Assembly (NCBI RefSeq): GCF_025717005.1
Contig: NZ_JAOVZU010000004.1
Span: 248,001 to 312,000, forward strand
Length of the DNA stretch: 64,000 nucleotides
Direction: 5' to 3'
DNA from: Actinotalea endophytica
Lineage (GTDB): Bacteria > Actinomycetota > Actinomycetes > Actinomycetales > Cellulomonadaceae
The position numbers were made by a program, and so were the translations under genes. Every line of letters begins with the position of its first letter. Position 1 is the stretch's first letter. Below are positions 3,050 through 22,432 of this stretch, piece after piece. The notes beneath the pieces are model-generated. The model had not been told where the DNA came from and made no database searches. It saw only the letters and a program-made list of their open reading frames with translations.

Positions 3050-5656
3050 GTGACGTTCGACGTACCTGCCCCGATCCTGAGGGTCGAGCACCACGCACCC
3101 CCGTCCGCGCTCGGCACCGGCGAGGCACGGCCACGGCTCTCCTGGCAGATCGCCCGCGCGCCCGGCTCCTACCGGCAGGCTGCGTACGAGGTCTCCTGGC
3201 GCACGACCGCACCGGACGGCACCACCACCGAGGAGTCCTCGAGCGTGACCGCCTCCGCCGACCAGGTGCTCGTCCCCTGGCCCGGCGCGCCGCTCGCACC
3301 GCGCCACCGCGCCGAGGTGCGGGCCCGCACCCAGGACGCCGCGACCGGGCTGTGGGGTCCGTGGAGCGAGCCCGTCGTGGTCGAGCGCGGGCTCGGGCCG
3401 GACGACTGGCGCGCCGAGCTCGTCGGGCCCGGCTACCCCGAGGGGCCGGAGGACGACCGCCGCGCCCCGCTGGTCCGCGGCCGGTTCACCGTGCCGACCG
3501 GGTCCGTCGCCGCGGCCCGCCTGCACGTCACGGCCCACGGCCTCGTCGAGGTCGAGCTGAACGGCACCCGGGTCGGGCAGGACGAGCTCCACCCCGGCTG
3601 GACCCCGTACGCCGAGCGGCTGCGGGTCCGCACGTACGACGTCACCGGCCAGGTCCGGCCCGGCGAGAACGCGATCGGCGCGTGGCTGGCCGACGGCTGG
3701 TTCCGCGGCCGGTTCGGCTTCGAGGGCGGGACCACCGACATCTACGGCGACCACGTCGGCGTGCTCGCCCAGCTCGAGATCACGCTGGACGACGGGAGCA
3801 CCGTCACGATCGGCTCGGACGCCACGTGGCGCAGCGCGCCCGGCCCACTGACCAGGGCCAGCCTGTACGACGGCGAGCGCATCGACCTCCGGCTGCTGCC
3901 CGCAGGCTGGTCCGAGCCCGGCTTCGACGACTCGGCGTGGGCTCCGGTGGCGGTCCTCCCCCTCGACCGGGCGGTCCTCGCCGCACCGGACGCTCCCCCG
4001 GTGCGTTGCACCGAGGTGCTCGAGCCGGTCGAGGTCACCGCGGTCGACGGCGGCTGGCTGCTCGACTACGGGCAGAACCACTCCGGCCGGCCCCGCGTGC
4101 GCCTGCCCGAGGCACCGGCCGGAACCCACGTCACGATCCAGCACGCCGAGGTGCTCCAGGACGGTCGGGTCTACCGTCGGCCGCTGCGGCAGGCTGCGGC
4201 CACCGACGAGATCATCACGGACGGTCGCGCCGTCGAGTGGGAGCCCAGGTTCACGGTGCACGGCTACCGCTACGCGTTCGTCACCGGGTGGCCCGGCACC
4301 GAGCCGCCCGCCCCGGGGGCCGTGGTGTCCCGGGTGCTGCACTCGGACATGGCGCGCACCGGCTGGTTCTCCTCCGACCGGGCGGACCTCGACCGGCTGC
4401 ACGAGAACGTGGTGTGGGGCCTCCGCTCGAACTTCGTCGACATCCCGACCGACTGCCCGCAACGCGACGAGCGGCTCGGCTGGACCGGCGACATCCAGCT
4501 GTTCGCCCCGACCGCCGCCTTCCTCTACGACGTGCACGGCGTGCTGTCGGACTGGCTGCGGTCGGTGAGCATCGAGCAGCAGCGCTACGGCGGGACGGTC
4601 CCGGTCTACGTGCCGTGGGTGCCGGGCGGCCAGTGGTGGCGCCCCGACATGGACGTGGCCGCCTGGGGCGACGCGGCCACGGTCGTGCCCGAGGCCCTGT
4701 TCCGCGCGTTCGACGACCGCGACCTGCTGGTGCGTCAGTACGAGTCGGCCCGGACCTGGGTCGACAAGGTCGCCGGGCTCGCCGGACCGAGCCGGCTGTG
4801 GGACCAGCAGCTCCAGCTCGGCGACTGGCTCGACCCGGCCGCGCCGCCGGACCGGCCGATGCAGGCGATGACCGATCCGCACCTGGTCTCGACCGCGTAC
4901 TTCGCCCGGTCGGCGGACGCCCTCGCCGGCATCGCGGCCGCGCTCGGCCGCGACGACGACGCCGCGCACTACGCCGGGCTCGCGGCCGAGGTCCGCGCCG
5001 CGTTCGTCGGGCGCTACGTCGGCACCGGCGACCCGATGCACGACACGGTCTGCGCGCACGCGGTCGCGATCGCCTTCGACCTGCTGCCGGACGCCGAGCG
5101 CGACCGGGCCGGCGACCGGCTCGACGAGCTGGTCCGGGCCCGCGGCTGCACGGTGTCGACCGGGTTCGTCGGCACACCCGTGGTCACCGACGCCCTGACC
5201 GCGACCGGGCACCTCGACACCGCGTACCGCCTGCTGCTCAGCCACGACGACCCGTCCTGGCTCGCCACGGTCGACCGCGGCGCCACCACGATCTGGGAAC
5301 GCTGGGACTCGATGCTCGCCGACGGGACCGTGAACCCCGGGGACATGACGTCGTTCAACCACTACGCACTCGGGTCGGTGATGGACTGGGTGCACCGCAC
5401 GGTCGGCGGCCTGGCGCCGGCCGCACCCGGCTACCGCGAGCTGCTGGTCGCACCACGGCCCGCCGAGGGCATCACCCGGGCGCGCGTGCGGCACCTGACC
5501 CCCTACGGCGAGGCCGCGGTCGCCTGGGAGCTGCGCGACGGCGAGCTCGTCGTGTCGTTCACCGTGCCGGTCGGGACCACGGCCGTCGTCGACCTGCCCG
5601 GCCAGGAGCCGTTCCGGGTGGGCCACGGCGACCACGAGGCGACCGTCCCGGCCTGA
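3050..5656 (+). CDS. Alpha-L-rhamnosidase, GH78
   Basis: 868 residues, a normal length for bacterial GH78. The N-terminal 330 or so residues are beta-sandwich domains (PRLSWQIA opening, then the conserved LNGTRVGQDELHPGWT region). The catalytic (alpha/alpha)6 barrel follows, with the diagnostic DCPQRDERLGWTGD motif (Asp468, Glu474, Asp481) and the C-terminal TTIWERWDS and SFNHYALGSVMDWV segments. No signal peptide is visible, so it probably acts in the cytoplasm on imported rhamnosides such as rhamnogalacturonan or flavonoid fragments. GTG at 3050 gives the family-typical N-terminus. A LacI-type operator lies just upstream. It converges with the AraC-GH39 gene over a hairpin. Confidence 0.93.
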   Translation: MTFDVPAPILRVEHHAPPSALGTGEARPRLSWQIARAPGSYRQAAYEVSWRTTAPDGTTTEESSSVTASADQVLVPWPGAPLAPRHRAEVRARTQDAATGLWGPWSEPVVVERGLGPDDWRAELVGPGYPEGPEDDRRAPLVRGRFTVPTGSVAAARLHVTAHGLVEVELNGTRVGQDELHPGWTPYAERLRVRTYDVTGQVRPGENAIGAWLADGWFRGRFGFEGGTTDIYGDHVGVLAQLEITLDDGSTVTIGSDATWRSAPGPLTRASLYDGERIDLRLLPAGWSEPGFDDSAWAPVAVLPLDRAVLAAPDAPPVRCTEVLEPVEVTAVDGGWLLDYGQNHSGRPRVRLPEAPAGTHVTIQHAEVLQDGRVYRRPLRQAAATDEIITDGRAVEWEPRFTVHGYRYAFVTGWPGTEPPAPGAVVSRVLHSDMARTGWFSSDRADLDRLHENVVWGLRSNFVDIPTDCPQRDERLGWTGDIQLFAPTAAFLYDVHGVLSDWLRSVSIEQQRYGGTVPVYVPWVPGGQWWRPDMDVAAWGDAATVVPEALFRAFDDRDLLVRQYESARTWVDKVAGLAGPSRLWDQQLQLGDWLDPAAPPDRPMQAMTDPHLVSTAYFARSADALAGIAAALGRDDDAAHYAGLAAEVRAAFVGRYVGTGDPMHDTVCAHAVAIAFDLLPDAERDRAGDRLDELVRARGCTVSTGFVGTPVVTDALTATGHLDTAYRLLLSHDDPSWLATVDRGATTIWERWDSMLADGTVNPGDMTSFNHYALGSVMDWVHRTVGGLAPAAPGYRELLVAPRPAEGITRARVRHLTPYGEAAVAWELRDGELVVSFTVPVGTTAVVDLPGQEPFRVGHGDHEATVPA

Positions 5657-5713: not shown

Positions 5714-8206
5714 CTACCGCGAGTGCGCGCCGGTCGGCACGATCTCGACGAACCGCACCTCGAGCGGCTCGAGCACCGCCGACACGGTCAGGGCGTCGCC
5801 GTCCACGACCGTGTCGTTCACGATCATCTGCGGGACGGCGACCTGCCGGATGTACTCCACGCACTCCGGGTCGATCGTCGGTGCCCCCATCTGCAGCCAG
5901 GTGTCGAACGCCGAGCCGTGCTCGGCGTTGATGACCCGTTCGCGCAGGCGGTAGGCACCCGGCTCGAGCCCGGTGAGCTCGATCGAGACGTCCATCCGAC
6001 CGACCTCGGAGAACGGTGCGTAGCGCTCGAGGTAGGTCATGTCGTACCGCTCGCCGGAGGCGAACAGGTGGCTGAAGTGCTCGTAGTTGTAGAGCACGAC
6101 CTGCATCGCCGACCCCCGCGCGGTGACCACGTAGCCGTCACCGCGCGAGACGAGCCGGTCACCGAGCCGCGAGAGACCCTCGAGCACGTGGTAGTGCGGC
6201 TTCTTCACGCCGTTGTAGGTGAGCAGCCCGAGCCCGCCGTGGAACATGTCCGCGCTCGGCTGGAGCTCCTCGAGCAGGTCGGTGAGCGTCCAGTACGTGA
6301 AGGCGTCGAGCTCGTCGTAGTTCTCCAGGAGGTTCTTGGCGAGGTAGCAGCTCTTGAAGGTCGTGTCGTTCAGCAGGTCGCGGTGCGAGACCGTGAGGTT
6401 CCACTCGGTGAGGTAGACCGGCACCTTCAGCCCGAGGTCGCGGAGCAGCAGCGTGAGCTGGCCGATCGTCTTGCCGAACGCGTCCTGGTCGCGGTTCAGT
6501 CGCGTCGAGCTCGGGTGCCCGGGCGTGTGCTCGTCGAGCGTCGACCCACTGAAGTCGTTGTCGTAGAAGTGCACGGCCAGGAAGTCGGGCGAGCACCCGC
6601 GCCGACGCACGTCGTCGAGGAACCCGACGAGCCACTCCTTGCCCTGGGTGTAGGAGACCAGCATCGCCGGGCTGCCGAACTGCAGCGACTCCCCGAACCC
6701 CTTCACCGCGCGGTAGGTGGCCTCGTAGAACTCGTAGAACTCCGCGTCGTCCTCCCAGCCGAACAGGGTCGGGCCGGTGTCGGGCTCGTTCCAGACCGTG
6801 AAGAGCCAGGTCCCGACCTCACGCGCCGAGTACCGGTCGATCGCGTGCCGCATGAACGCCTCGACCAGGTCGACCCACCGCTCGGTGCTGCGCGGCGGGC
6901 TGACGTTGAACGGCGCGGAGTACACCGTCCGGTCCGGCACGGAGGCGAGATCCTGCGGCGTGAAGGAGAGCTGGACGAACGGCTTGAGCCCGATCGACAG
7001 GAGGAAGTCCAGGACCTTGTCGACCAGGACGAACGAGTACACCGGGGCGCCGTCGGCGTCCTCGCGGTAGACGTGCATGTCGTCCGCGAACAGGCCGTGG
7101 AACTTCACGTACTCGAACCCGACGTCGCTCTGCCACTGCCGCAGCCAGTCCCGGACCTCCTCGAAGAGCAGCTCCTTCGCGCGCCCGACCGCGGTCATCT
7201 TGCGGTAGCTGTGCCGCAGCGGCCTGCCCGGCGCGGACACGTCGACGCCGTCGACGGCGACCACCTTGGTGGGCGGCTCGACCTCGGCGCGGCGCTCGAC
7301 GGTCGGCTCGGCCGGCAGGTACTGCGCGAGGATCCGCAGCGGCGTGTCCGGCGCGGCCCCGAGCGTCGTCGGCGGGCGAGACTCGCTCGGCTCGGCGGCG
7401 ACGTGGTCCCGGCGGTACTGGCTCGGCAGGACGCCGTACCGGTCCTTGACCTGTTTGACGAATGCCCGCGGGTCGCGGAAGCCGTTCCGCTTGGCGACCA
7501 CCTCGATGCTCTCGTCGGTCGTGACCAGGTCGTCCACCGCGCGGTCGAGCCGCAGCTGGGTGTAGTACGCCGAGAACGTGGTGCCGACGTGCTCCTTGAA
7601 GAACGCCGACAGGTACGGGGCCGAGAGGTGCTCGTGCGCGGCGACCTGGTTGAGCGAGAGCCCCTCGGCGTAGTGCTCGTCGATGTACCGCAGCAGGCCC
7701 CGCAGCCGTGCGCGGTGCTTGTCCGAGGTGGTCTGCTGGCCCGGGCGCGCGACGAACCGGTGCATCAGCTCGTCGAGCAGCGCGTACAGCAAGGCGGTCG
7801 TCTGGAAGCGTCGCTGCTCGTCCTCGGTGCTGTTGACCTTGATGATCGTCGCGAGCAGGTGGACCAGCGGGCGGAACGCGGCCCGGCCCTGGACCGCGGT
7901 GGAGTTGGCCCGGAACTGCACGTCGTCCAGCGACGGTGCGAGGCGGTGCACGTCCACGCGCAGCACGATCAGCTGGCACCGCGCACCGGCCTCGACCTCG
8001 AGCAGGCTGTGGGGGTTGACCCACAGCACGTCCTCGACCCCGAGGGCGACCTCTTCGTCGTCGACGACGAGCAGCGCCTGACCGTGGACCACGAAGACGA
8101 GCTGTGCCTCGTCACGCCGCGACGGGCCGGCCCCGTCGGTCTCGACCATGAGAACCCGAGCCGGGACCGACCGGGACAGCTTCACCAGCTCGGACTCGGT
8201 GTGCAT
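5714..8206 (-). CDS. AraC-type regulator fused to a GH39 glycoside hydrolase
   Basis: 830 residues with three parts. Residues 1-110 are a cupin-like sensor (LVFVVHGQALLVVDDEEVAL). Residues about 165-268 are a complete AraC double helix-turn-helix (LSLNQVAAHEHLSAPYLSAFFKEHVG, then IEVVAKRNGFRDPRAFVKQVKDRYG). After a proline-rich linker, residues about 335-830 are a GH39 beta-xylosidase-like domain. Its acid/base is Glu474 in VWNEPD and its nucleophile Glu601 in YLTEWN, so catalysis looks intact. GH39 members are mostly beta-xylosidases or alpha-L-iduronidases. No signal peptide is seen. One protein could therefore bind sugar, hydrolyse it and regulate transcription. The start at 8206 has GGAG directly against the ATG, which is tight. 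It lies 48 bp after pgmB on the same strand and may be the last gene of that operon. Confidence 0.9.
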   Translation of the reverse strand: MHTESELVKLSRSVPARVLMVETDGAGPSRRDEAQLVFVVHGQALLVVDDEEVALGVEDVLWVNPHSLLEVEAGARCQLIVLRVDVHRLAPSLDDVQFRANSTAVQGRAAFRPLVHLLATIIKVNSTEDEQRRFQTTALLYALLDELMHRFVARPGQQTTSDKHRARLRGLLRYIDEHYAEGLSLNQVAAHEHLSAPYLSAFFKEHVGTTFSAYYTQLRLDRAVDDLVTTDESIEVVAKRNGFRDPRAFVKQVKDRYGVLPSQYRRDHVAAEPSESRPPTTLGAAPDTPLRILAQYLPAEPTVERRAEVEPPTKVVAVDGVDVSAPGRPLRHSYRKMTAVGRAKELLFEEVRDWLRQWQSDVGFEYVKFHGLFADDMHVYREDADGAPVYSFVLVDKVLDFLLSIGLKPFVQLSFTPQDLASVPDRTVYSAPFNVSPPRSTERWVDLVEAFMRHAIDRYSAREVGTWLFTVWNEPDTGPTLFGWEDDAEFYEFYEATYRAVKGFGESLQFGSPAMLVSYTQGKEWLVGFLDDVRRRGCSPDFLAVHFYDNDFSGSTLDEHTPGHPSSTRLNRDQDAFGKTIGQLTLLLRDLGLKVPVYLTEWNLTVSHRDLLNDTTFKSCYLAKNLLENYDELDAFTYWTLTDLLEELQPSADMFHGGLGLLTYNGVKKPHYHVLEGLSRLGDRLVSRGDGYVVTARGSAMQVVLYNYEHFSHLFASGERYDMTYLERYAPFSEVGRMDVSIELTGLEPGAYRLRERVINAEHGSAFDTWLQMGAPTIDPECVEYIRQVAVPQMIVNDTVVDGDALTVSAVLEPLEVRFVEIVPTGAHSR

Positions 8207-8254: not shown

Positions 8255-8959
8255 CTAGCCCGCGACCCGGGCGGGCACCTCGGCCAGCCCGTCGATGCGC
8301 CAGGTCACGTCCGGGTGCGTGGCAGCGGCCCCGATGCCGAAGCAGGCGAAACCACCCGCGAGCGCGGCGTCGACCCCGGCGTGCGCGTCCTCGACCACGG
8401 CGCACTCCCCCGGTGAGAGCGCGAGGAAGTCGGCGGCCCGCAGGAAGACCTCGGGGTCCGGCTTGCTGCGGGTGATGTTCTCCCCGTCGGAGACCGCGTC
8501 GAAGAGGCCGCGCAGACCCACCTTGTCCAGGATCACCTTGGCGTTGCGGCTCGACGAGCCGATCGCCAGCCGCAGGCCCATCGCGCGCAGCGTCCCGAGC
8601 GCCGCCCGCACCTCGGGGCTGACGTCGTCCGGTGTCATGGTCTCCAGGAGCCGGCGGTAGAGCTGGTTCTTCTCGTCGGCCAGCACCTCCTTCTCGGTCT
8701 CGGACACCTCGGCGCCGCCGAGCGAGAGCACGATGTCCAGGCTCTCCGCGCGGGACACCCCGCGCAGCCGGTCGTTGTCCGCCCGGGTGAACGGGATCCC
8801 GAGCCGGTCCGCAGTCGCCGACCACGCCTGGAAGTGCAGCTCGTCGGTGTGCACCAGCACGCCGTCGAGGTCGAAGATCACGCCCCTCAGACGGCGGCGC
8901 GCGCCCCCGCGCGCGCCGTCCTGCGCGGAGTCCTGCTCACCCTCCTGCTCGCCGCTCAC
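8255..8959 (-). CDS. pgmB: Beta-phosphoglucomutase-like HAD hydrolase
   Basis: 234 residues of the HAD superfamily, subclass I. Motif I is GVIFDLDGVLVHTDELHFQAW, with the nucleophile and acid/base aspartates and the tail typical of beta-phosphoglucomutase. Motif II is AIGSSSRNAKVIL, the motif III lysine is in SKPDPEVFL, and motif IV is VVEDAHAGVDAAL. The family interconverts beta-glucose-1-phosphate and glucose-6-phosphate. GTG at 8959 is used because it overlaps the stop of the GH3 gene (GTGA), although the first 20 or so residues are low complexity and the true start could be slightly downstream. Pairing with a GH3 enzyme and an ABC importer suggests it consumes a sugar-1-phosphate made by that enzyme. 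Confidence 0.85.
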   Translation of the reverse strand: MSGEQEGEQDSAQDGARGGARRRLRGVIFDLDGVLVHTDELHFQAWSATADRLGIPFTRADNDRLRGVSRAESLDIVLSLGGAEVSETEKEVLADEKNQLYRRLLETMTPDDVSPEVRAALGTLRAMGLRLAIGSSSRNAKVILDKVGLRGLFDAVSDGENITRSKPDPEVFLRAADFLALSPGECAVVEDAHAGVDAALAGGFACFGIGAAATHPDVTWRIDGLAEVPARVAG

Positions 8960-10650
8960 AGGTGCGTGTCCCACTGCCCGCAGAACGCGTCGACCGGGCT
9001 GGTGCCCGCGAACGGCGCACGGCCCTGGAGCCGCTCGAGCAGCGCATCCAGCACCGCCGGCGAGGAGCCGTAGGTGTTGACGAAGGTCCGGACCCGGGGC
9101 ACGTCGAACAGGTGGTACGGGTTCTCCAGCGAGACGAACACCGTCGGCACGCTGTGCACGTACGCGGGCACGTTGGCGCCCATCGGCTCGGCCCACTCGA
9201 TCCGCACCACGGTCTGGTTGGACCGGGTGGACAGGTTCGCCAGGTAGAGGATCAGGTCGTAGCTGTCCGTCACGTCGGTGGTCGGGCTCGCCATGCCCTC
9301 CCAGCCACCGCCCGGCTTGAACCGGGTGACCTGGTGGCCCGCGGCGGTCAGTCGCTCGATGACCTGTTCCACCGCCCCGGCCCGGGCCCCCTGGCCGATC
9401 GGGCTGCCGCCGTTCTCGAGGTCGTGGACCAGCACTCGGGGGTACCGGTCGGCGGTGAGCGGCAGGACGCCGGGCTCCTGCTTGACGAGCGTGACGGACT
9501 CGCCGGCGATCCGCCGGGCGACCGCGTCGTGCTCGGGGTCGGCGAGGACCTCGGCGGCGTCCGGCCGGGGCAGGTTGTCCCCACGGTGCAGGCCGAGCGA
9601 CGCCTTGAGCGCGAGCACCCGGGTCACCGCCTCGTCGAGCCGCTCGCGGGTGATCACCCCGTCGCGGACGCCGGCCTGCATGAAGGCGACGTCCTCGTCC
9701 AGGTTCTTGGTGAACAGGAACATGTCGCACCCGGCGGCGATCACCCGGGGCACCGCCGCGGACCGCGGCAGCACCGAGGCGAGCCCCGCCATCGTGGTCG
9801 AGTCGGACACGATCAGGCCGTTGAACCCGAGGCGGCCGCGCAGCAGGTCGCCCAGCAGCTCCTCGGCGACGATGCCCGGCATGATCTCCGCGTCGGCGAT
9901 CCCCGGGCGCAGCTCGCGGCTGTAGGCCGGCAGCATGATGTGGCCGACCATCACGCTCTTCACGCCCGCGTCGATCGCGGCGCGGTACACCCGGCCGAAG
10001 GTCTGCTCCCACTCGGGCACCGACAAGGTGTTCACGGATGCGAGCAGGTGCTGGTCGCGCTCGTCGACGCCGTCGCCCGGGAAGTGCTTCACCGACGCGG
10101 CCACGCCCTCGGCCTGGATCGCGGTGACGTACTCGGCGCCCATCGCCGCGACCTTCTCGGCGTCGGAGCCGAAGGTGCGGGTGTTGGTGATCGGGTTGCG
10201 GAAGCTCGCGTCGACGTCGACCACCGGCGTGAACGCCCAGTTGATCCCGACGGCGCGTGCCTCCCGGCCGATCACCCGGGCCGCGTCGTGCGCGGCGTCG
10301 GCGCGACCCGTGGCGGCGATCGCCATGTTCGAGCCGACGTGGGTCGCCTCGGCGATGGTCTGCGACGCGCCGCCCTCGAGGTTGGCCGAGATCAGCAGGG
10401 GCACGGCGGCGGTGCTCTGCAGCGTCGTGACCGTGCTCACGGCCTCGTCGGTGCTCATCGTCCGCAGCAGCACGCCGCCGACGTGCTGGCCACGCGTGAG
10501 GTGCTCGAGGTACCCCGGGTCGCTGGTGTACGTGATGAGGCAGAAGAGCTGGCCGATCTTCTCGGCGTCCCCCATGCCCGCCAAGGTGTCGGTCACCCAG
10601 GCCACGCCGTCGTCGTCGAGGGAGAACGGCGGTGCGGTCAGATCGATCAT
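8956..10650 (-). CDS. GH3 NagZ-type beta-glycosidase or phosphorylase
   Basis: 564 residues. The TIM-barrel domain carries KHFPGDGVDERDQH, the NagZ-subgroup loop with the Asp199-x-His201 catalytic dyad (Gln replaces the usual Ser/Thr between them). The nucleophile is Asp283 in IVSDSTTMAGL. A second alpha/beta domain (about 390-564) follows, ending NTYGSSPAVLDALLERLQG. No signal peptide, so cytoplasmic. NagZ-type GH3 enzymes use the Asp-His dyad rather than a glutamate acid/base, and one from Cellulomonas fimi (Nag3) has been reported to act as a phosphorylase. The overlap with pgmB (GTGA) makes that attractive here. Its own start overlaps the upstream permease stop (ATGA). The sugar could be glucose or N-acetylglucosamine. 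Confidence 0.87.
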   Translation of the reverse strand: MIDLTAPPFSLDDDGVAWVTDTLAGMGDAEKIGQLFCLITYTSDPGYLEHLTRGQHVGGVLLRTMSTDEAVSTVTTLQSTAAVPLLISANLEGGASQTIAEATHVGSNMAIAATGRADAAHDAARVIGREARAVGINWAFTPVVDVDASFRNPITNTRTFGSDAEKVAAMGAEYVTAIQAEGVAASVKHFPGDGVDERDQHLLASVNTLSVPEWEQTFGRVYRAAIDAGVKSVMVGHIMLPAYSRELRPGIADAEIMPGIVAEELLGDLLRGRLGFNGLIVSDSTTMAGLASVLPRSAAVPRVIAAGCDMFLFTKNLDEDVAFMQAGVRDGVITRERLDEAVTRVLALKASLGLHRGDNLPRPDAAEVLADPEHDAVARRIAGESVTLVKQEPGVLPLTADRYPRVLVHDLENGGSPIGQGARAGAVEQVIERLTAAGHQVTRFKPGGGWEGMASPTTDVTDSYDLILYLANLSTRSNQTVVRIEWAEPMGANVPAYVHSVPTVFVSLENPYHLFDVPRVRTFVNTYGSSPAVLDALLERLQGRAPFAGTSPVDAFCGQWDTHL

Positions 10651-11711
10651 GATGCGTTCACTCCGGAGGTCACGGGGGCCTTGTTCGGGGTCGCGGCCGT
10701 GGTGGGCGCTGCCGGTCCGGACGGGCTCGCGCCGCGGCGGTGCGTGACCGAGCGCCATGCCCGCCCGATGCGCTCCTCGTTGCTGAGGAACATCAGGAAC
10801 CCGACGAGCAGCAGTGCGTTGGTGATGGACTGAACCGTGCTGCTCAGGCTCAGCGCGGCGAACGCGAGACCCACGAGCGTCATGGTCAGGGCGCCGAGCA
10901 GGAAGCCCAGCTTGTCGTTGGAGAACCGCCCGATGTAGCCCCCGATGAAAACCGGGAGGAAGGCGGTGAACATGATGCCGATGGACCCGAAGTTCAGCTT
11001 GCCCGCCTCGATGTAGCCCATCTGCGACGCGATGATCAGGCCGACGACGCTCATCAGGGCCCCGCTGACCGCGTAGGTCAGCACGGCGTTCCGCTTCTCC
11101 TTGGTGCCCGAGGCGACCGCGGCGGCCTGCCCGGTGATCAGCGCGCGGTAGTCGAACCCGAACCGCGTGCGGTCGAAGACCGTGTAGACCAGCACCAGGC
11201 CGACGGCGACGACGAGCACCATCGCGAGAGTGCTCTTGGCGAACGACGTGAGGCCGCGGTCGAGCAGGAAGCTGACGTTGGCGCCACCGGTGATCGCGAA
11301 CGAGATCCCCTCGTACAGCAGCGTGATGCCCAGCGAGCACACCATCGGGGAGATCCCGAGCAGCACGTACACCAGGCCCGAGACCACGCCGAGCAGGATC
11401 CCGGTGCCGATCGTGACCAGGGCCATCACGGCGAAGCCGCCGCCGGTCTGGATCGCGACCGTCGCCCCGACCACCGACGACAGCGTGGCCATCGCGCCGA
11501 GCGAGAAGTCGAACCGGCCGCTGTTGAGGTTGATGGCCAGGGCCATCGAGGTCAACATCGTGGTCGCGACCCCACGGGTCAGCAGCAGCAGGCTGTCGTC
11601 GGTGTGGAACAGGGAGACACCGTTGAGCGAGCACAGTGCGGTGAGCACGACGAACGCTCCCACCGGGATGATGAGCGTCCCTGTCGCTCGTCGCATGAGT
11701 CCGGCTCCCAT
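10647..11711 (-). CDS. CUT2-type sugar ABC transporter permease
   Basis: 354 residues, about eight to ten hydrophobic helices, with the RbsC/BPD_transp_2 layout: an early NLNSGRFDFSLGAMATLSSVVGA (the conserved D-x-S-x-G-x-x-x-x-L segment) and a later ASQMGYIEAGKLNFGSIG and PVFIGGYIGRFSN region. Start at 11711 has GGGAGG eight bases upstream. It is the second permease of the operon and probably forms a heterodimer with the one at 13001-14035. The cytoplasmic C-terminal tail of about 40 Ala/Pro/Thr-rich residues is not typical of the core fold. It overlaps the GH3 gene by ATGA. Confidence 0.9.
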   Translation of the reverse strand: MGAGLMRRATGTLIIPVGAFVVLTALCSLNGVSLFHTDDSLLLLTRGVATTMLTSMALAINLNSGRFDFSLGAMATLSSVVGATVAIQTGGGFAVMALVTIGTGILLGVVSGLVYVLLGISPMVCSLGITLLYEGISFAITGGANVSFLLDRGLTSFAKSTLAMVLVVAVGLVLVYTVFDRTRFGFDYRALITGQAAAVASGTKEKRNAVLTYAVSGALMSVVGLIIASQMGYIEAGKLNFGSIGIMFTAFLPVFIGGYIGRFSNDKLGFLLGALTMTLVGLAFAALSLSSTVQSITNALLLVGFLMFLSNEERIGRAWRSVTHRRGASPSGPAAPTTAATPNKAPVTSGVNAS

Positions 11712-11741: not shown

Positions 11742-12941
11742 TCAGTCGGCGACGTAGGTGTAGGCCGCGACGAACGCCTCGAAGGTGTCGTAGCCCTGGT
11801 CACCGTTGGCGAACTGCTCGAGCTCCGCCTTGCCGTAGAACGGGTTCTCGATGGTGTCGCCGGCGAGGAACGCGTCGAACTGCTCCGGCGACGTCGCGAC
11901 CCAGTAGCCCTGCTCCAGCGCGAGCGCCGTGTCGCCCTCGGCACGGATCGGGTGGCCCTCGACCGCTGCGTAGGTGGCGGCGAAGATCGGGCCGATGCTC
12001 GAGGTGAACTTGCCGGCGAGGTAGCCGACCAGCCCTTCCTTCATCGCCTGGCCGTTCTCGTCGGTGTAGGCGTCGATGTCACCGATCGTGATGCCGGTGT
12101 CGGCGACCGCAGCGCCGAAGACCGCGAAGCCGGTTCCGGCCGCGAGGATCACGTCCGGCTTGGACGCGACGACGGCGGCCAGGTTGGCCTGCCACGCGGC
12201 GTCGTCGAAGCTCCACACCTCGTGGTAGCCGGTGAGCTCGTAGACGTCGGACTGGAAGTCGGCGACCTTGACGGTGCCGTCCTGCATGATCTTCCCGAGG
12301 ATCGCGCCGAAGTCCGTCGCGCCGCCGTACGACGTCGAGGGCTCCTCGGCGAGCGCGGCGAGCATGCCCGCGGTCCGGTAGATGTGCATGTCGATGTAGT
12401 AGGGGACGCCGGCGCCGTAGATCGCGAAGCGGGTGTCGCCCTGCTCCACGAAGTACTTCGCCATGTCGTAGCCGGCCTGGTACTCGACGCCGAGGCTCGG
12501 GCCGATCGCACCGACGTAGTACTGGTAGTCCTTGAACTCCTCGTACTGGTCGTCGCTCAGCGTGCCGGTCGCGACCGCGTAGTAGATCCCCGCGTCCTCG
12601 GCCATCTGGATCTGCGTCGGGCGGTCCGCGGAGGCGAACGAGATGATCGCCTCGCAGTTGTTGGCGATGAAGCTCTCCATCGCGCGCTTCTCGGCGTCGG
12701 CGTCGCCGACCTCCTCCGAGTAGACGAACTCGACGGGGAAGTTCTCCTGGATGTACGTCGTGTAGTAGTCCTTGAAGCCCAGGGCCTCGGAGGACGTGGC
12801 GTCCGCGACCAGGACGCACATCTTCACGGGGTCGGAGCCGCCGCCGGCAGCGGAGTCCGAACCGCCGCCGCAGGCCGTCAGGCCGAACGAGAGCCCGAGC
12901 GCTGCCGTCGCGGCGAGCGCGGTGGACCTGCTGATCTTCAT
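11742..12941 (-). CDS. Sugar-binding lipoprotein of CUT2-type ABC importer
   Basis: 399 residues. The N-terminus is a lipoprotein signal with the lipobox LTAC (Cys24), so the mature protein is anchored outside the membrane. The mature part has the two-lobe type 1 periplasmic binding fold of the ribose/xylose group, with acidic, tyrosine-rich stretches. AAGGGAAG lies seven bases before the ATG at 12941. It sits between the two permease genes with 58-bp and 29-bp spacers, and is unusual in order, since the binding protein more often begins such operons. The ligand cannot be read from sequence. The GH3 and PgmB genes downstream suggest a beta-linked glucoside or aminoglucoside. Confidence 0.88.
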   Translation of the reverse strand: MKISRSTALAATAALGLSFGLTACGGGSDSAAGGGSDPVKMCVLVADATSSEALGFKDYYTTYIQENFPVEFVYSEEVGDADAEKRAMESFIANNCEAIISFASADRPTQIQMAEDAGIYYAVATGTLSDDQYEEFKDYQYYVGAIGPSLGVEYQAGYDMAKYFVEQGDTRFAIYGAGVPYYIDMHIYRTAGMLAALAEEPSTSYGGATDFGAILGKIMQDGTVKVADFQSDVYELTGYHEVWSFDDAAWQANLAAVVASKPDVILAAGTGFAVFGAAVADTGITIGDIDAYTDENGQAMKEGLVGYLAGKFTSSIGPIFAATYAAVEGHPIRAEGDTALALEQGYWVATSPEQFDAFLAGDTIENPFYGKAELEQFANGDQGYDTFEAFVAAYTYVAD

Positions 12942-13000: not shown

Positions 13001-14035
13001 CTACCGCGGGAGCAGCTTGCTGCGGTGGCCGCTCGTGGCGACCCACACGACGGCCAGGAAGAACAGGGCGCGGACCACCTGGGAGATGCCGTTGCCGGCC
13101 GAGGACGTGGCGAGCAGGGTCGTCATGGTCTGGTTGAGCACCGCCATCGACAGGCCACCGAGCAGCGCCGCGTAGATCCGGGTGCGCGGGCCGCCGGAGA
13201 TCGGCATACCGCCGAAAACCATCGCGACCAGCACGTTCATCCCGATGTCGGCGGCCGAGCTCGTGGTCATCGTCGGCGTGCGCAGCACCGTGAGGAAGGC
13301 GCCGAGGCCCACGCCGAGCCCGGCGATCGCGAACGCCGCGATCGCGGTCTTCTTCATCGAGACGCCGGTGAGCCGCGCGGTCACCGGGTTCCCGCCGATC
13401 AGCTTCTCGACCCGGCCCAGCCGGGTGTAGGTGAACAGGAACACGCACAGGGCCAGGAAGGCCACGGCCACCGAGAGCTTGACCGGCAGCGTGTCGTACT
13501 GGCGGGCGAAGGAGCTGTCGACCTTGATCTGGGCGCCACCGGTGGTCTGCACGAGCGCGACGGCGACCGCACCGAGCACCGAGAGCATCGCGACGGTGGT
13601 GACGAACACCGGCAGGTTGAAGACCGCGGCGAGCGACGCGCTCACCAGCGACGTCGCGACCGCGGTGAGGATGCAGGCCACGAGCATCGCCACGAGGCTC
13701 TCGGTCGCGTTGTAGGCCAGCCCGCCGACCATCGCCGCGACGAGCGTCGAGGCGCCGAGGCTGATGTCGAACGAGCCCATCGCGAAGATGAAGATCGCGC
13801 CGGTCGCGATGATCACGATCACCACCGACTGGTTGATCAGCGTCTGGACGCTGTAGGACATGTTGACGCCGCTCACGGTGCCGACGACCACGAAGGCCAC
13901 GGTGAGGACGACGAGCCCGAGCAGCGGCGCGAGGGCCGGGACGAGCTCGCGCGGCGACCTGCGCCGGGCAGCCGTGCCGTTCGGTCCGCTCGTGCCGTTC
14001 GCGCCGGGCCGGGTGCGCTGGGTCAGATCATGCAC
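13001..14035 (-). CDS. CUT2-type sugar ABC transporter permease
   Basis: 344 residues. After a polar, Gly/Arg/Pro-rich N-terminus of about 30 residues come eight or more hydrophobic helices with the RbsC-like segments FAMGSFDISLGASTLVAA and MNVLVAMVFGGMPISGG (the conserved G-G-x-x-I/L-S/F-G-G motif). The GTG at 14035 is chosen because it lies inside the end of the ATPase gene (13-bp overlap), which fits translational coupling; a much longer in-frame extension would read through the ATPase gene. Partner of the permease at 10647-11711. Confidence 0.88.
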   Translation of the reverse strand: MHDLTQRTRPGANGTSGPNGTAARRRSPRELVPALAPLLGLVVLTVAFVVVGTVSGVNMSYSVQTLINQSVVIVIIATGAIFIFAMGSFDISLGASTLVAAMVGGLAYNATESLVAMLVACILTAVATSLVSASLAAVFNLPVFVTTVAMLSVLGAVAVALVQTTGGAQIKVDSSFARQYDTLPVKLSVAVAFLALCVFLFTYTRLGRVEKLIGGNPVTARLTGVSMKKTAIAAFAIAGLGVGLGAFLTVLRTPTMTTSSAADIGMNVLVAMVFGGMPISGGPRTRIYAALLGGLSMAVLNQTMTTLLATSSAGNGISQVVRALFFLAVVWVATSGHRSKLLPR

Positions 14036-15522
14036 TGGATGATCTCCATCTCGGTCAGTTCCGGGCCGCGCTGGAACTCGCGCGCCACCGTGCCGTCCTT
14101 CATGATCAGCAGGCGGTCGCACATCCCCATGAGCTCGGTCATCTCCTCCGAGACCATGACGATGGCCTTGCCCTCGCTCTTGAGCTGCACCATCAGCCGG
14201 TACATCGCCTGCTTGACGCCGATGTCGACACCGCGGGTGGGGCAGTCCAGGATCAGGACCTCGCTGCCGCACGCGATCCACTTGCCGAAGACGACCTTCT
14301 GCTTGTTGCCGCCGGACAACGTCCCGACGACCTGCCGGTCGTTCGTGGCCTTGATCGCCAGCTGCCGCATGGGCCCGGCGACGTAGCGCTCCTCGGCGCG
14401 GCGCGTGATCAGGCCCCCTCGGCCCCGGCCCAGCAGCCGCAGGCCGGCGCTCGCGATGTTGTCGCTGATGCTCGCGGTCAGGCTGAGCGACTCGGTGTCG
14501 CGGTCCTTGGACACGTAGCCCATGGCGGCGCGCACGGCGCGCTGCTCGTTGACGATCCGCTTGCCGTTGACCACGACGTTGCCGGCGTCGAGGCGGACGG
14601 CTCCGAACAGCGCCTGGCCGAGCTCGTGCATGCCGCAGTGGCTCAGCCCGCCGATGCCCACGATCTCCCCGGCCCGGACCACGAGGTCGACGCCGCGCAC
14701 CTTGTCACCGACCGTGACGTCGGTCGCGCGGAGCAGGACCTGCGGGAAGGCGGTGGCCGTGGTGTCCGCGCGGTAGTAGTGGCCGTCGAGGTTCCGGCCG
14801 ATCATCGCCGCCCGGATCGCGTCCTCGTCGAACTCGGACTTCTCGAACGTGCGGATCATCTCGCCGTCGCGCAGCACCGTGAGGCGGTCGCAGACCGCGA
14901 GGATCTCCTCGAGGTCGTGCGAGATGAAGATCACCGAGCCGCGGGCGCGCTGCTCGTCGACCAGGCGGTAGAGGGTCTCGCGGCCGTGCTGGGACAGCGC
15001 GGTCGTGGTCTCGTCGACCACGACGACCTTGGGCGCGTGCATCATCACGCGCGCCAGCTCGACGAGCTTGCGGGTCTGGAAGTCGAGGGCGCCGGCCGGC
15101 GTTCGCGGGTCGATCGCGTCGATCCCGATCGCGGCGAGGGCGCGCCCGGCCTCCCGGTTCATCGCTGCGCGGTCCACGAGCCCGAGCCGGACGAACCGGC
15201 CGGCGTCACCGAGGAACAGGTTCTCCGCGACGCTGATCCCCGGGACCGTGCCGCTCTCCTGCACGATCATCCCGATGCCGCCGTCGAGCGCCTCGTTCAC
15301 CGACGCGGGCGACCACGGGCGGCCGAGGAAGTGCACGGTGCCCGCGTCGGCGCGCTGCTGGCCCGCGACGATCGACGTCAAGGTGGACTTGCCCGACCCG
15401 TTCTCGCCGATCAGGCCGTGCACCTCGCCGTCACGGAGCTCGAAGTCCACACCCTTGAGCGCACGGACGACGCCGAAGCTCTTCGACATGTCGGTGACGG
15501 TGAGGACGCTCTCGCTCGTCAT
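14023..15522 (-). CDS. CUT2-type sugar ABC transporter ATPase (duplicated, asymmetric)
   Basis: 499 residues made of two nucleotide-binding domains, as in RbsA. The first has an intact Walker A (GENGSGKST, 39-47) and Walker B (VVVVDET, 166-172), but where LSGGQ is expected it has LDFQTRK (146-152). The second has lost the Walker A lysine (GIGGLSHCGMHE), which is common in this family, and its Walker B reads LILDCPTRG with Cys427 in place of the catalytic Glu, but it keeps a good signature LSGGNKQKV (402-410). Only one composite ATP site can therefore be complete: first-domain Walker motifs with the second-domain signature. AGAGAGGC lies seven bases before the ATG. First gene of the leftward operon. 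Confidence 0.93.
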   Translation of the reverse strand: MTSESVLTVTDMSKSFGVVRALKGVDFELRDGEVHGLIGENGSGKSTLTSIVAGQQRADAGTVHFLGRPWSPASVNEALDGGIGMIVQESGTVPGISVAENLFLGDAGRFVRLGLVDRAAMNREAGRALAAIGIDAIDPRTPAGALDFQTRKLVELARVMMHAPKVVVVDETTTALSQHGRETLYRLVDEQRARGSVIFISHDLEEILAVCDRLTVLRDGEMIRTFEKSEFDEDAIRAAMIGRNLDGHYYRADTTATAFPQVLLRATDVTVGDKVRGVDLVVRAGEIVGIGGLSHCGMHELGQALFGAVRLDAGNVVVNGKRIVNEQRAVRAAMGYVSKDRDTESLSLTASISDNIASAGLRLLGRGRGGLITRRAEERYVAGPMRQLAIKATNDRQVVGTLSGGNKQKVVFGKWIACGSEVLILDCPTRGVDIGVKQAMYRLMVQLKSEGKAIVMVSEEMTELMGMCDRLLIMKDGTVAREFQRGPELTEMEIIQCMI

Positions 15523-15915
15523 GGCACAGCCTCTCTGCTGCCGCGCGGTAGTCCGGCGGTCTGGTGGACGACCTCATGGTTCGTCGCGCGAGGAGAGGCC
15601 GACAACGAGCACTCGTACGGGGTTCGCCGCCCGCTCTTGGGGTCACCCGGGTGAGTGCCGGGGCTCCGCCCGGTGCGGTCGCATTACCGGGACGAGGCTC
15701 GGGAGGACACCCGACCGTAAGGAGTTGCACCTGCGCAGACGCGGCCTCGTTTGCTTCACATCCGGCGGTCGGCACCGTCGCGCGGGCGGTCGGCACGGCC
15801 GCGCGGGCGGTCGATCGGTGCGCCGTCGTGGGTGGCGATCACGAGGGCGGCGCCGCAGGCGGCCACGAGGACGCCTCGGCCGGGCAGGCCGCGGTGGTGG
15901 TGCCCGGCGGGGCTC
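15523..15915. other. Gene-free stretch with operon promoter region and short tandem repeat
   Basis: 393 bp between the ABC ATPase start and the end of the SGNH gene, both leftward. It must hold the promoter of the 15522-8255 operon, but I see no convincing CG-centred operator or -35/-10 pair. A 21-bp unit beginning GCGGTCGGCAC is repeated at 15765-15785 and 15786-15806 (two mismatches), with a partial third copy after it. The rest shows no supportable gene. Confidence 0.6.
15765..15806. repeat. Two tandem 21-bp units plus a partial third
   Basis: Both units start GCGGTCGGCAC and end CGCGCGG; they differ at two bases. A third partial copy starts at 15807. The unit length is a multiple of three, but no gene covers it, so it is noted only as a simple GC repeat. 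Confidence 0.6.
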
Positions 15916-17115
15916 CTACCGGACCGGCGCGTCCGACGTCGACCCGCGGCCGGCGGGCGTCGGCGACACCGAGACGAGGACCTCCGCGAACCTCCGGCCG
16001 ATCTCGCGGTGCGCGGCCGGATCTGGGTGCATCGCGTCGCTCCACGGTGCTGCCGCCTCGTCGGCCTCGCCCCACAGCGCCCGGCCGTCGAGGTGCTGCA
16101 GCGCCGGGTCGTCGCGCACCGCGACCACCTCGTGTACGAGCGCCCGGATCCGGCGCAGGTCGAGCCGGCCGTCGGCGCGATCGTCCGCCCGACCATGGGT
16201 CGCGAACCTGCCCCGGTCGGGATCGAAGTAGGTCGGGCCCGGCACGTCCTCGACCAGCGGGCACAGCAACGGGGAGATCACCACCACCGGGACCGACGGG
16301 AGCCCGGAGCGGATCGTGTCGAGCATCCCGTGCAGCGCGGGCCCGAACGTCCGCTCACGCAGACAGTCCCGGTTGACCACGTTGATGCCGACCTCGAGCG
16401 AGACGACGTCGGCGCCGCTGTCCCGGATCGCGCCCGCGACGTACGGGTCGAGCATCGCGTTGCCGGACATGCCGAGGTTGACCAGGTCCAGGCCGGCGGC
16501 CCGGGCCGCGACCGCCGGCCAGGTCGTGGTCGGCGACGCGGCGCCGGCGCCCTGGCTGATCGACGAGCCGTGGTGCACCCAGCGCGGCGCCGAGACCGGG
16601 CTCGGCGGGTGGATCGGAGCGTCGGCCTCGACGTCCCGCAGCACCACCGCGGCGTCGACCGGGAGCCAGATCTCGACGTCACGCAGCCGGCCGGCCCCGG
16701 GGAGCTGCGCGACCACCTCCACCACCTCGCCGACGGTGCGCCGGACGTCACCCGACGCCGGGTCGAGCAGGTCGGTGCCCGTGCTCGTCGACCGGACCGG
16801 TGCCACGTCCCCGAGCGGTGCGTCCCGCACGACGTCCCACACCAGGTCGCCGGGCGGCGGCCCGCCCACCAGCCGGGTGGCGATCGGCCGGCCACGCACG
16901 ACGACCCGGCCCGCCGCGGTCCGCAGGCGGATCCGCACGGCGGCACCCTGCTCGTCGACCATCCGGGCGAAGCCGTCCGGCATCCGCGTGCGGCACCGGG
17001 CGGGCAACCGGTGCGGCAGCACGCCGCCCGCCACTCGCTCTAGCCACGCACTCCCCCGGATCTCGAGCCGGTCGGCCGGGACCCGCTCACCCGGGCCCGC
17101 GACCGCTCCGCTCAC
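15916..17115 (-). CDS. SGNH/GDSL-family esterase
   Basis: 399 residues. A beta-rich N-terminal domain (about 1-175) is followed by an SGNH hydrolase domain. Block I is HHGSSISQG with nucleophile Ser185, block II NLGMSGNAM supplies the oxyanion Gly, block III EVGINVVNRD supplies the Asn, and block V DAMHPDPAAH supplies Asp360 and His363. This two-domain layout is common among bacterial carbohydrate esterases that remove acetyl or other acyl groups from sugars. No signal peptide. GTG at 17115 overlaps the stop of the upstream oxidoreductase (GTGA); an ATG 24 bp further up is possible but lies inside that gene. Last gene of the operon that begins at 23755. Confidence 0.85.
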   Translation of the reverse strand: MSGAVAGPGERVPADRLEIRGSAWLERVAGGVLPHRLPARCRTRMPDGFARMVDEQGAAVRIRLRTAAGRVVVRGRPIATRLVGGPPPGDLVWDVVRDAPLGDVAPVRSTSTGTDLLDPASGDVRRTVGEVVEVVAQLPGAGRLRDVEIWLPVDAAVVLRDVEADAPIHPPSPVSAPRWVHHGSSISQGAGAASPTTTWPAVAARAAGLDLVNLGMSGNAMLDPYVAGAIRDSGADVVSLEVGINVVNRDCLRERTFGPALHGMLDTIRSGLPSVPVVVISPLLCPLVEDVPGPTYFDPDRGRFATHGRADDRADGRLDLRRIRALVHEVVAVRDDPALQHLDGRALWGEADEAAAPWSDAMHPDPAAHREIGRRFAEVLVSVSPTPAGRGSTSDAPVR

Positions 17116-18215
17116 CGTGGCGCCTTGACCGGCGGCCACGGAGCACCCGGGCCCTGCATCCGCTCGTAGAACGGGTCGCCGGCACCGATCTCTCCCCGCC
17201 GCACCTCACGCCCCGTGAACGCCGAAGCGTAGGTCGCAGCCGCCAGCTCGAGCGTGACGCGGGCCACCTCGACCGGTACCGGCAGCGGAGCGCCGGACAC
17301 GAGGGCGTCGAGCACGGCCGCCCACTGCGCCGCGTGCGAGCTCGGCCGCCCGGGTGCGCCCGGGAAGACAGCGGCGAGGTCGGCGTACCCGGGCGCCGGC
17401 GTGAGCCGCCAGCCGGCGTCGTCGTAGCCGTACAGGTGCTCGAGCTCGAGCGTCGCGCGGTCGGTGTCCACCCGGATCGACGACACCTCGCGCGGGGAGA
17501 GGACCGAGTTCACGATCGTCGCGACCGCACCCGACTCGAACTGCACGACGGCCGCCGACACGTCCTCGGTGTCGGTGTCGCGGGACAGCCGTGCCGCCAT
17601 CGCCCGCACCGCGGACCACGGTCCGAGGAGTGCGAGCAGCAGGTCGAACTGGTGGATGCCGTGGCCCATCGTCGGACCGCCGCCCTCCACCTCCCAGCGT
17701 CCGCGCCACGGGACCTCGAAGTACGCGGGCGCGCGGAACCAGAGGGTGTCGCAGGTCGCGACCAGCGGGCGGCCCAGGGGTCCGGGACTCCCGTCGCCCC
17801 GAGGGGCGAGCAGCTCCGCGGCCCGCAGGCCGGCGCCGCCGAAGCGGTGCTGGAACACGACACCGACCCGCGCCCCGGTCCGGTCCTGCACGGCGATGAG
17901 GCGGTCCATCTCGGCGAGGCTCAGCGCCGGCGGCTTCTCGGTCAGGACCGGGACACCGGCCTCGAGCGCCTCGGTGGCGAGCGGCAGATGGGTGCCCGGG
18001 GGCGTGCCGAGCACCACCAGGTCGGCACCGCCCGCGAGCGCCGCGGCCAGGCTCCCGCCCGAGCGACGGACCCCGTGGCGCGCCGCCACGTCGGCGGCTC
18101 GTGCCTCGTCGACGTCCACCACCCAGGTCACCTCGGCGCGGCCGCTCTCCGCGACCGCGGCGAGGTGCGAGGCGGCGATCGCACCGGCACCGACCAGAAC
18201 CACACGCGTGGTCAT
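17112..18215 (-). CDS. Gfo/Idh/MocA-family oxidoreductase
   Basis: 367 residues. The Rossmann NAD(P)-binding start is VVLVGAGAIAASHLAAVAES, followed by the family motif VPVLTEKPPALSLAEMDRL with the conserved EKP lysine, then the C-terminal beta-sheet domain with GGGPTMGHGIHQFDLLLALLG. Members oxidise or epimerise sugar hydroxyls, often at C3, using NAD(P). GAAGGAGGA sits ideally before the ATG at 18215. It overlaps the cupin gene upstream (ATGA) and the SGNH gene downstream. The operon holds an importer but no glycoside hydrolase, which makes an oxidative role on an imported sugar plausible. Confidence 0.9.
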   Translation of the reverse strand: MTTRVVLVGAGAIAASHLAAVAESGRAEVTWVVDVDEARAADVAARHGVRRSGGSLAAALAGGADLVVLGTPPGTHLPLATEALEAGVPVLTEKPPALSLAEMDRLIAVQDRTGARVGVVFQHRFGGAGLRAAELLAPRGDGSPGPLGRPLVATCDTLWFRAPAYFEVPWRGRWEVEGGGPTMGHGIHQFDLLLALLGPWSAVRAMAARLSRDTDTEDVSAAVVQFESGAVATIVNSVLSPREVSSIRVDTDRATLELEHLYGYDDAGWRLTPAPGYADLAAVFPGAPGRPSSHAAQWAAVLDALVSGAPLPVPVEVARVTLELAAATYASAFTGREVRRGEIGAGDPFYERMQGPGAPWPPVKAPR

Positions 18216-18913
18216 CGTTCCTCCTTCGTGGCGGGCCACGGGCGCAGCCGGCCGCACATCCCGTAGCCCGGCTCACCCGTCCACGCCTCGCCCGCCGCCA
18301 CCCGGGCGGTGCTCATCAGGTCGGCCGGGCTCCGCCCCTCGCCGGCGGCCGGGCGAGCGAGGCGTGCACGCCCCGCCGCGAGCACGGCGGGGCCGACCAG
18401 CCGCTCCGCCGCCGCGTGCAGCCGGGCCATGGCGTCCACCGGGCCGATCCGCTCGACCGCGTCGTACAGCTCGGCGAGCCCCTCGATCGCGAGGTCGCGG
18501 CGGTGTCGCGCGGCTGCCGCCACGTCTCCGTCGCGCGGGAGCGCCGCCTCGGCCCGGTACCGCTCGGGGTCCGCGAGCACCGCGCCGGGGAACGTGAGCA
18601 CGGCATCGCCGGCCTCGGCGAGCCCCGCGTCCGACATCACCACGAGCACATCGAGGTCGCCGTCGTTGACCGCCCGATGCACGGTGCCCGCCGTGAACCA
18701 GACCGCCACGCCGGGCCGCAGCTCGTGCACCGCCGCGCCGGACGGCGTGATCGTGTGCACCGAGCCGTGCCCGCCGAGCACCACGTACGCCTCGGTCGAC
18801 ACCGTGTGCAGGTGCGGGGCGCCACTGCCGACCAGCCCGACGCCGTCGGGCGCCGGCCAGTCGTAGACGGCGAGCCTGGTGAGCTGGGTGCCCCCAGGCA
18901 TCGGAGTGCTCAT
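18212..18913 (-). CDS. Cupin-domain protein
   Basis: 233 residues. Residues about 15-110 form a single cupin: APHLHTVSTEAYVVLGGHG matches the first cupin motif (H-x-H-x4-E-x6-G), and the second motif is represented by PGVAVWFTAGTVHRAVN. The cupin probably binds a metal or a sugar. The C-terminal half is helical and Ala/Arg-rich, without a recognisable domain, ending in a Gly/Tyr/Cys segment near EPGYGMCG. No helix-turn-helix is seen, so it is not an AraC regulator. It overlaps both neighbours by ATGA. Possible roles are a sugar isomerase, a dioxygenase or a sensor; sequence alone does not decide. Confidence 0.8.
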   Translation of the reverse strand: MSTPMPGGTQLTRLAVYDWPAPDGVGLVGSGAPHLHTVSTEAYVVLGGHGSVHTITPSGAAVHELRPGVAVWFTAGTVHRAVNDGDLDVLVVMSDAGLAEAGDAVLTFPGAVLADPERYRAEAALPRDGDVAAAARHRRDLAIEGLAELYDAVERIGPVDAMARLHAAAERLVGPAVLAAGRARLARPAAGEGRSPADLMSTARVAAGEAWTGEPGYGMCGRLRPWPATKEER

Positions 18914-19845
18914 CGCACGGCCTCCGCGGCGAGCGCGGACTCGCCGAGCGCGGCCAACCGGCCCGCCCGCCTCGGGTCCGAGGCGCCGTCGGCGACGACG
19001 GTGGCATAGCGGAACCGCAGCTCCGCGCCCGGGTCGAAGCCGACCTCCGCGGAGAAGGCGGGCGCCGGGCACAGGGCGGCGAAGTTCTCGGACCGCGCGA
19101 ACCACTCGACCGGGTGACCGGGGTTGCCGACCGCGTCGACCATGACGACCGTCGACGAGGCGTCCACCTCGTCGTGCCGTCCGGTGAAGGCCATCCACGC
19201 CGCACGCTGCCCGCGAAGCTCGTCACCGCCGGACGCCGTGGCCGTCAGCAGGGTGCCGCCGGTGAAGGACCGCGGCCCCCGCCAGAACAGCCCGCCGTAG
19301 CCGGCGTTCGGCCGGCCGTTCGTGGTGGGGCTGCGCAGCGGGAGGGGCTCCCCCGACGTGTTCGTCATGGCCGACGACCAGGTGAGCACCCACACCTCCG
19401 GGTCGTCGGTGAGGAGGAACCCGAGGCGCCTCGTCTCCGAGACGACGGCTCGACCGTCCTGGGTACGCCACACCAGCCGGTGCGCCAGTCCCGCGGCGCT
19501 GCCCCCGCTCGACAGGTCGAGCATCTCGAGGTGCTCCATCGAGCCGTCGTTGTCGAGCTGGACGTAGCCCTGACCGGCCACGAACGTCGGGCCGCCCCAG
19601 AAGTTGTGCGGCCCGACGCCGGGCAGCGACCAGGCGATCCCCTTGTGCCACACGTGGTCGTGCGGCCGGTACGCGGTCACCACGTGGCCGGCCAGGGACC
19701 GCACGGGGTGCAGGTACGGCCGCGGGCTCTCCAGCTGCGGCGCGTCGGTGAGGTACACGTACCGGGCCAGGACGACGCCGTCGGCGACGACGTCGACGGC
19801 ACCGCCGGGATCGCGGGCCTCGAGCGTCACGACGCGGTCGCTCAT
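18910..19845 (-). CDS. DUF6807 (PmoA-family) protein
   Basis: 311 residues with the features of the DUF6807 group, often mislabelled methane monooxygenase PmoA: YLHPVRSLAGHVVTAYRPHDHVWHKGIAWSLPGVGPHNFWGG with its cluster of His residues, and the later LRSPTTNGRPNAGYGGLFWRGPRSF. The family is soluble, has no membrane segments here, and is common in operons with Gfo/Idh/MocA oxidoreductases and sugar isomerases in polysaccharide-degrading bacteria; its reaction is not established to my knowledge. The start at 19845 overlaps the upstream stop by one base (TGATG), and its stop overlaps the cupin start. Confidence 0.8.
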   Translation of the reverse strand: MSDRVVTLEARDPGGAVDVVADGVVLARYVYLTDAPQLESPRPYLHPVRSLAGHVVTAYRPHDHVWHKGIAWSLPGVGPHNFWGGPTFVAGQGYVQLDNDGSMEHLEMLDLSSGGSAAGLAHRLVWRTQDGRAVVSETRRLGFLLTDDPEVWVLTWSSAMTNTSGEPLPLRSPTTNGRPNAGYGGLFWRGPRSFTGGTLLTATASGGDELRGQRAAWMAFTGRHDEVDASSTVVMVDAVGNPGHPVEWFARSENFAALCPAPAFSAEVGFDPGAELRFRYATVVADGASDPRRAGRLAALGESALAAEAVR

Positions 19846-22341: not shown

Positions 22342-22361
22342 TCGTTGATCCGTTCGTCGAG

Positions 22362-22398: not shown

Positions 22399-22432
22399 TG
22401 CGCCGGTGCGGCGCGTGAGGCTGTCGTACGGC

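Follow-up and report, generated by a model that had tools for sequence, protein, structure and literature searches.

The window analyzed here, a 64,000-nt stretch of the Actinotalea endophytica genome, carries at positions 5714–8206 of the minus strand a gene for an AraC-GH39 fusion of 830 aa, which starts with ATG and runs as a single frame without internal stop. Its first domain, at residues 24–144 (7775–8137, minus strand), is an AraC-type cupin of the ligand-binding and dimerization kind (Pfam PF02311 AraC_binding, E = 1.9e-8), and it is followed at residues 175–266 (7409–7684, minus strand) by the AraC double helix-turn-helix (HTH). The latter matched PF12833 (3.1e-20) and PF00165 (2.4e-10), both above cut-off, with Pfam submatches HTH_AraC at 175–214 and HTH_18 at 189–266, giving the roughly 100-aa domain with a pair of HTH motifs that defines the AraC/XylS family. 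Residues 321–796 (5819–7246, minus strand) form a GH39 domain (PF01229 Glyco_hydro_39, 4e-73; 247 bits against a Pfam cut-off of 26), and the closest solved structures to the protein are GH39 beta-xylosidases (2bs9, 5e-72). The first-pass annotation had described a sensor domain, both HTH units and GH39 in one 830-residue frame, and the Pfam matches bore this out with the coordinates right. Its second claim, that Glu474 and Glu601 are both in place, agreed with the alignment to 2bs9 and 2bfg. The Glu474 codon (6785–6787, minus strand) encodes the putative general acid/base within VWNEP, in a column where 2bs9 reads WNEP and the closely matching 2bfg chain has Ala, reading WNAP; the Glu601 codon (6404–6406, minus strand) encodes the putative nucleophile within TEWN, aligning with the TEYN nucleophile motif of 2bs9. 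The remaining active-site residues H370, F415, N473, H546, Y548, W639 and E647 are also present. The fusion is the sole GH39 in its genome, and by eye we saw no signal peptide at its N terminus. The AlphaFold model of the window protein, built with five homologues, was poor (pLDDT 47, pTM 0.37).

The fusion is the last gene of a minus-strand operon with intergenic gaps of at most 65 bp and several overlapping genes. The first is a sugar ABC ATPase of AraG/RbsA type (14023–15522; PF00005, with a match to PRK11288 at 5e-119 that falls under the cut-off), followed by sugar ABC permease 1 (13001–14035; PF02653), a substrate-binding lipoprotein that is conserved in the locus and matched no Pfam or NCBIfam family (11742–12941), sugar ABC permease 2 (10647–11711; PF02653), a GH3 enzyme (8956–10650) and a beta-phosphoglucomutase (bPGM; 8255–8974). 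The bPGM has an intact DLD motif and scored above the cut-off of the equivalog TIGR01990 (4e-66); its start is uncertain, as the GTG lies at 8974 and homology begins near 8887. Enzymes of this kind convert beta-glucose 1-phosphate to glucose 6-phosphate. The GH3, a putative retaining beta-glucoside phosphorylase, matched 5vqd/5vqe at 8e-130, aligning with 5vqd over its full length with 437 bits and having KHFPGDGVDxRDQH in common with it. In its motif KHFPGDGVDERDQH, as in 5vqd, a His/Asp dyad replaces the Glu acid/base, and GH3 enzymes with this dyad are retaining phosphorylases that yield beta-sugar 1-phosphates (PMC8950772). With a phosphorylase relative next to a bPGM, the operon reads as one for beta-glucoside import and phosphorolysis: the two enzymes likely suffice to take a beta-glucoside all the way to glucose 6-phosphate, and on account of this pair a beta-glucoside is a likelier operon substrate than a xyloside. 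A GH78 alpha-L-rhamnosidase gene on the plus strand converges on the operon (3050–5656; PF17389, 1.6e-111). Upstream, a second carbohydrate-type cluster occupies 15916–25000 of the minus strand and contains a GDSL hydrolase, a Gfo/Idh/MocA oxidoreductase, a cupin protein, a DUF6807 protein, two ABC permeases and a binding protein.

We found the fusion in six Actinobacterial genomes at 68–77% identity to the window protein. Two full-length orthologues come from the same family as the window genome (G159, 77%; G164, 76%) and three from Demequina species (68–70%). Clostridia fusions showed 37–45% identity (two Clostridia metagenome-assembled genomes [MAGs], 41–44%) and those of Paenibacillus about 38% (Paenibacillus phocaensis, 38%). 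The architecture is rare in Actinomycetota: it occurred in 2 of about 200 genomes of the window genome's own family, and among 395 further genomes sampled from the whole phylum no match reached 1e-76. Our full sample, including the draws from Bacilli, Clostridia and Paenibacillaceae, comprised 77 distinct fusion proteins. The identical fusion, uninterrupted, in a single frame and with conserved boundaries, in independent assemblies from several phyla rules out an assembly chimera, and the related idea of a chance open frame joining two genes has a negligible probability; the assembly error that the first-pass annotation had named as potentially fatal to its proposal can be set aside. In one Clostridia MAG, the fusion is split into two frames of 495 and 335 aa (L039, 8001–10414), and the break, between query residues 476 and 490, is a frameshift or an assembly error. 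On the GH39 tree, three stand-alone GH39 frames whose site is intact (L233, L244 and L196) lie beside or inside fused clades, so fusion or fission has happened more than once.

The company of the fusion is conserved across phyla. The six-gene linkage of a sugar ABC importer, GH3, bPGM and AraC-GH39 recurs in Actinobacteria, Clostridia and Paenibacillus, the neighborhoods of high-GC genomes being determined with tblastn. In the Actinobacterial loci, the genes lie on one strand with the fusion last; the arrangement is divergent in Clostridia (L039, L170, L171, L177 and L178) and Paenibacillus (L161, L206–L209 and L211). The neighboring GH3s throughout carry KHFPGDG-x-D-x-RD(Q/H)H. Within the flanks retrieved, a phosphorylase-type GH3 accompanied 19 of 50 fusions with an intact GH39 site and 0 of 10 with a degenerate one (Fisher P = 0.02, with rows that are not independent and phylogeny uncorrected). 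Exceptions to the full set are found in Demequina, where none of the three loci retains the nucleophile Asp of bPGM (L034, FGLDG; L035, FALDG; L036, FGVDE), and two of them (L034 and L035) have an operon without GH3 that keeps the ABC genes and the fusion. A relative of the GH78 rhamnosidase lies near the locus in the window and in L159, L160, L034, L036 and L173, including four of the five other Actinobacterial loci, and in L161 and L171 an alpha/beta-hydrolase separates GH3 from bPGM. This company makes decorated plant glycosides a plausible substrate class, though such an assignment is a guess.

Both glutamates are kept in 65 of the 77 sampled fusions, contrary to the loss in most homologues that the first-pass annotation had set as the mark of a pure sensor. 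Each of H370, F415, N473, E474, H546, Y548, E601, W639 and E647 is present in all 65 intact fusions, and most of these invariant −1 subsite residues correspond to catalytic or recognition residues given for GH39 in PMC8543862. The mean identity to the query in the same 65 proteins was 21% for the cupin, 42% for the HTH and 40% for GH39. PMC8543862 lists Phe328 of XylP81 as a residue of substrate recognition; at the equivalent position, 31 of 34 stand-alone GH39s have F, and the fusions vary among F, I, L, H, M and Y.

The other 12 fusions have lost the pocket largely en bloc: H370 and F415 are left in two of them each, and N473 and H546 in one each. They keep the HTH signature residues, the barrel framework and W444, W467, G657 and G658, and a GH39 domain can therefore be retained for a noncatalytic use. 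At least two changes are needed to place the degenerate fusions on the GH39 tree, four being the simplest account. Since an intact query was used to collect the fusions, the figure of 12 under-counts the degenerate members; several of the Paenibacillus rows are also closely related to one another.

Decay of this type extends to staphylococcal regulators. The AryK equivalog NF047455 matched the window protein with 177.8 bits, below its cut-off of 850, over residues 31–407 only, a match that extends into the start of GH39. Conversely, a GH39 profile derived from the fusions matched four AryK equivalogs (L246–L249, all above the NF047455 cut-off) after the HTH; these have LNWN or LKWN as the nucleophile motif and lack the WNEP segment. 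In profile comparisons with hhalign, the AryK C-terminal region matched GH39 with a probability of 99.9 (E = 3.6e-33, 437 columns) and the region of Rsp and its paralogues with a probability of 92.3 (E = 5.6e-7, 275 columns), where pairwise E-values are uncalibrated for database search and the best value among controls, consisting of reversed profiles and four unrelated families, was 0.15. Pfam reported no GH39 in the AryK- and Rsp-type proteins (L246–L249 and L250–L258). On the strength of these profile matches, we identify the AryK C-terminal region as a decayed GH39 domain, and that of Rsp is probably another. The AryK paper names no domain for its region, and the Rsp paper describes a divergent C-terminal region seemingly involved in signal recognition (PMC7241556); the comparison supplies an identity for the former and probably for the latter.

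A shared promoter element accompanies the linkage in Bacillota. The 26-bp motif TTAA-N5-YGC-N10-WTAA recurs in the divergent fusion/ABC promoters of nine loci (L161, L206–L209, L211, L039, L177 and L178). Across 1.25 Mb from 64 loci we counted 12 occurrences, 11 of them in a fusion/ABC promoter, against a random expectation of 4.3 over all bases; the count alone is circular since the pattern was read off these same promoters. A matrix built from Paenibacillus only outperformed 300 of 300 shuffles in finding the Clostridia sites; run in reverse, with a Clostridia matrix on Paenibacillus, the test gave 0–1 of 300 shuffles. The half-site step is 22 bp, which is of the order of AraC-type tandem sites, and in L161 and L206 two copies of the motif lie about 208 bp apart. 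The motif was absent from the held-out loci L170, L171 and L173 and was not found in the six Actinobacterial promoters. We consider it a candidate operator. The six Actinobacterial upstream regions have in common a conserved block of their own, GTA-N4-NNCTCGTTG, at 15597–15620 of the minus strand in the window, a candidate regulatory site.

The sugar import and breakdown locus around the fusion supports a regulatory reading by context. We infer that the protein probably controls the transcription of beta-glucoside import and phosphorolysis, with the GH39 pocket sensing the ligand and possibly acting as a catalytic off-switch. In such a scheme, the fusion would be a cytoplasmic regulator of the AraC family, in control of the operon whose last gene encodes it. 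The importer would take up a beta-glucoside, GH3 would phosphorolyse it to beta-glucose 1-phosphate and bPGM would pass this on as glucose 6-phosphate; the complete −1 subsite of GH39 would bind the glycoside once imported, or a closely related compound, and signal its occupancy to the HTH. Most likely the fusion would activate its own operon upon beta-glycoside import. GH39 is probably still a hydrolase, and slow destruction of its own inducer would let expression fall as the substrate is depleted. To the reading as a whole, a regulator of this operon with the GH39 pocket as the sensor and a still-active hydrolase eroding the inducer, we give an even chance. Besides the pocket and the linkage, it draws on the promoter motif shared by the Bacillota relatives; the lack of that motif in L170, L171, L173 and the Actinobacterial promoters weighs against it, as do the two Demequina operons that keep the fusion with GH3 missing and the bPGM nucleophile lost.

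In AraC regulators, the cupin is the usual sugar sensor, and it is a second candidate sensor here. The invariance of the pocket, the looser cupin and the retention of dead domains favor GH39 as the sensor, or one of them. The earlier proposal that the hydrolase could serve as the sugar sensor is thus partly supported, the dead domains being those of the 12 degenerate fusions, which retain the HTH and the barrel framework; its companion, turnover as the off-switch, is an attractive but speculative hypothesis. Real turnover is favored by the joint invariance of the acid/base and the nucleophile.

The main competing explanation is that GH39 serves metabolism and is only attached to a regulator: it would be a working beta-glycosidase of the pathway, tethered for coexpression, and the cupin alone would sense the sugar. 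The complete and invariant catalytic residues are equally expected from a metabolic role, and the intact stand-alone GH39s next to or inside fused clades fit it too, as does XylP81, an active GH39 beta-xylosidase that shares 80% identity with a protein carrying an AraC-family regulator annotation (PMC8543862). In the two Demequina operons without GH3, moreover, GH39 could be the cleaving enzyme. In most loci of the clade, however, cleavage of the substrate is already the task of a dedicated GH3, and a domain kept for catalysis only should vanish once inactive, whereas a dead GH39 is kept in 12 of 77 fusions and likewise in staphylococcal AryK. We regard the tethered enzyme as rather unlikely. 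If GH39 instead bound the glycoside without physiologically relevant turnover, the glutamates would be kept for hydrogen bonds to the ligand. The degenerate members, in which regulation would persist without catalytic residues, agree with such a pure sensor, and the variable Phe328-equivalent fits an altered ligand specificity. A pure sensor should nevertheless relax the acid/base in some lineages with the remaining pocket kept, and E474 and E601 are both present in 65 of 65 proteins together with H546; the only partial cases seen (S/E and A/E rows) have lost the pocket too. This makes binding without turnover improbable in our judgment.

Returning to the sensor that also hydrolyses, we put forward only tentatively, as a possibility well short of even, that a live-glycosidase sensor reset by turnover is a design ancestral to, or shared with, a repeatedly decayed family that includes AryK and Rsp. 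If true, an intact glycosidase would be wired to a DNA-binding domain and the lifetime of the signal would be a catalytic parameter. Because live and naturally dead forms occur within one family, what binding and turnover each contribute can be compared directly.

Our literature search found no functional or regulatory study of the AraC-GH39 architecture, and PMC5320581 and PMC10755729 held nothing relevant to such fusions. We rejected 10BT gene 29 (PMC4730625, PMC5457731) as evidence for an active fusion: it is a 192-aa AraC protein labeled GH39 and was insoluble when expressed. The architecture itself has already been noted, as the first-pass annotation had surmised in expecting database fusions of no established function. 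PMC8543862 mentions an AraC-like domain at the N terminus of some GH39 xylosidases, among them the relative of XylP81, in the same domain order as in the window. There the AraC annotation was regarded as erroneous and that portion was trimmed ahead of the alignment; the regulation and genomic context of the fusions and the conservation of their active site, considered here, lie outside that paper.

The GH39 beta-xylosidases of Geobacillus (2bs9/1w91) and Thermoanaerobacterium (1px8/1uhv) show full-length homology and a common −1 subsite. These free enzymes lack a DNA-binding domain and read TE(F/Y)N, whereas the window protein reads TEWN and lies in a locus for glucoside phosphorolysis. The window GH3 has the same KHFPGDGVDxRDQH as BglP/BglX (5vqd; PMC8950772), although its phosphorylase activity is putative. 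A 2022 review lists only two characterized GH3 beta-glucoside phosphorylases (PMC8950772), and the coupling of such an enzyme to a bPGM, an ABC importer and a dedicated AraC-GH39 regulator is reported here from sequence. Staphylococcal AryK and Rsp resemble the window fusion in having a large C-terminal region behind an AraC HTH but control virulence and metabolism rather than an adjoining sugar operon. Escherichia coli AraC and XylR are like it in their AraC-type HTH and sugar-responsive control of an adjoining catabolic operon; their sensors are a cupin (AraC) and a periplasmic-binding-protein fold (XylR), whereas the window protein has an enzyme fold with intact catalytic residues and would be an AraC regulator whose sensor domain is of enzyme type and apparently live.
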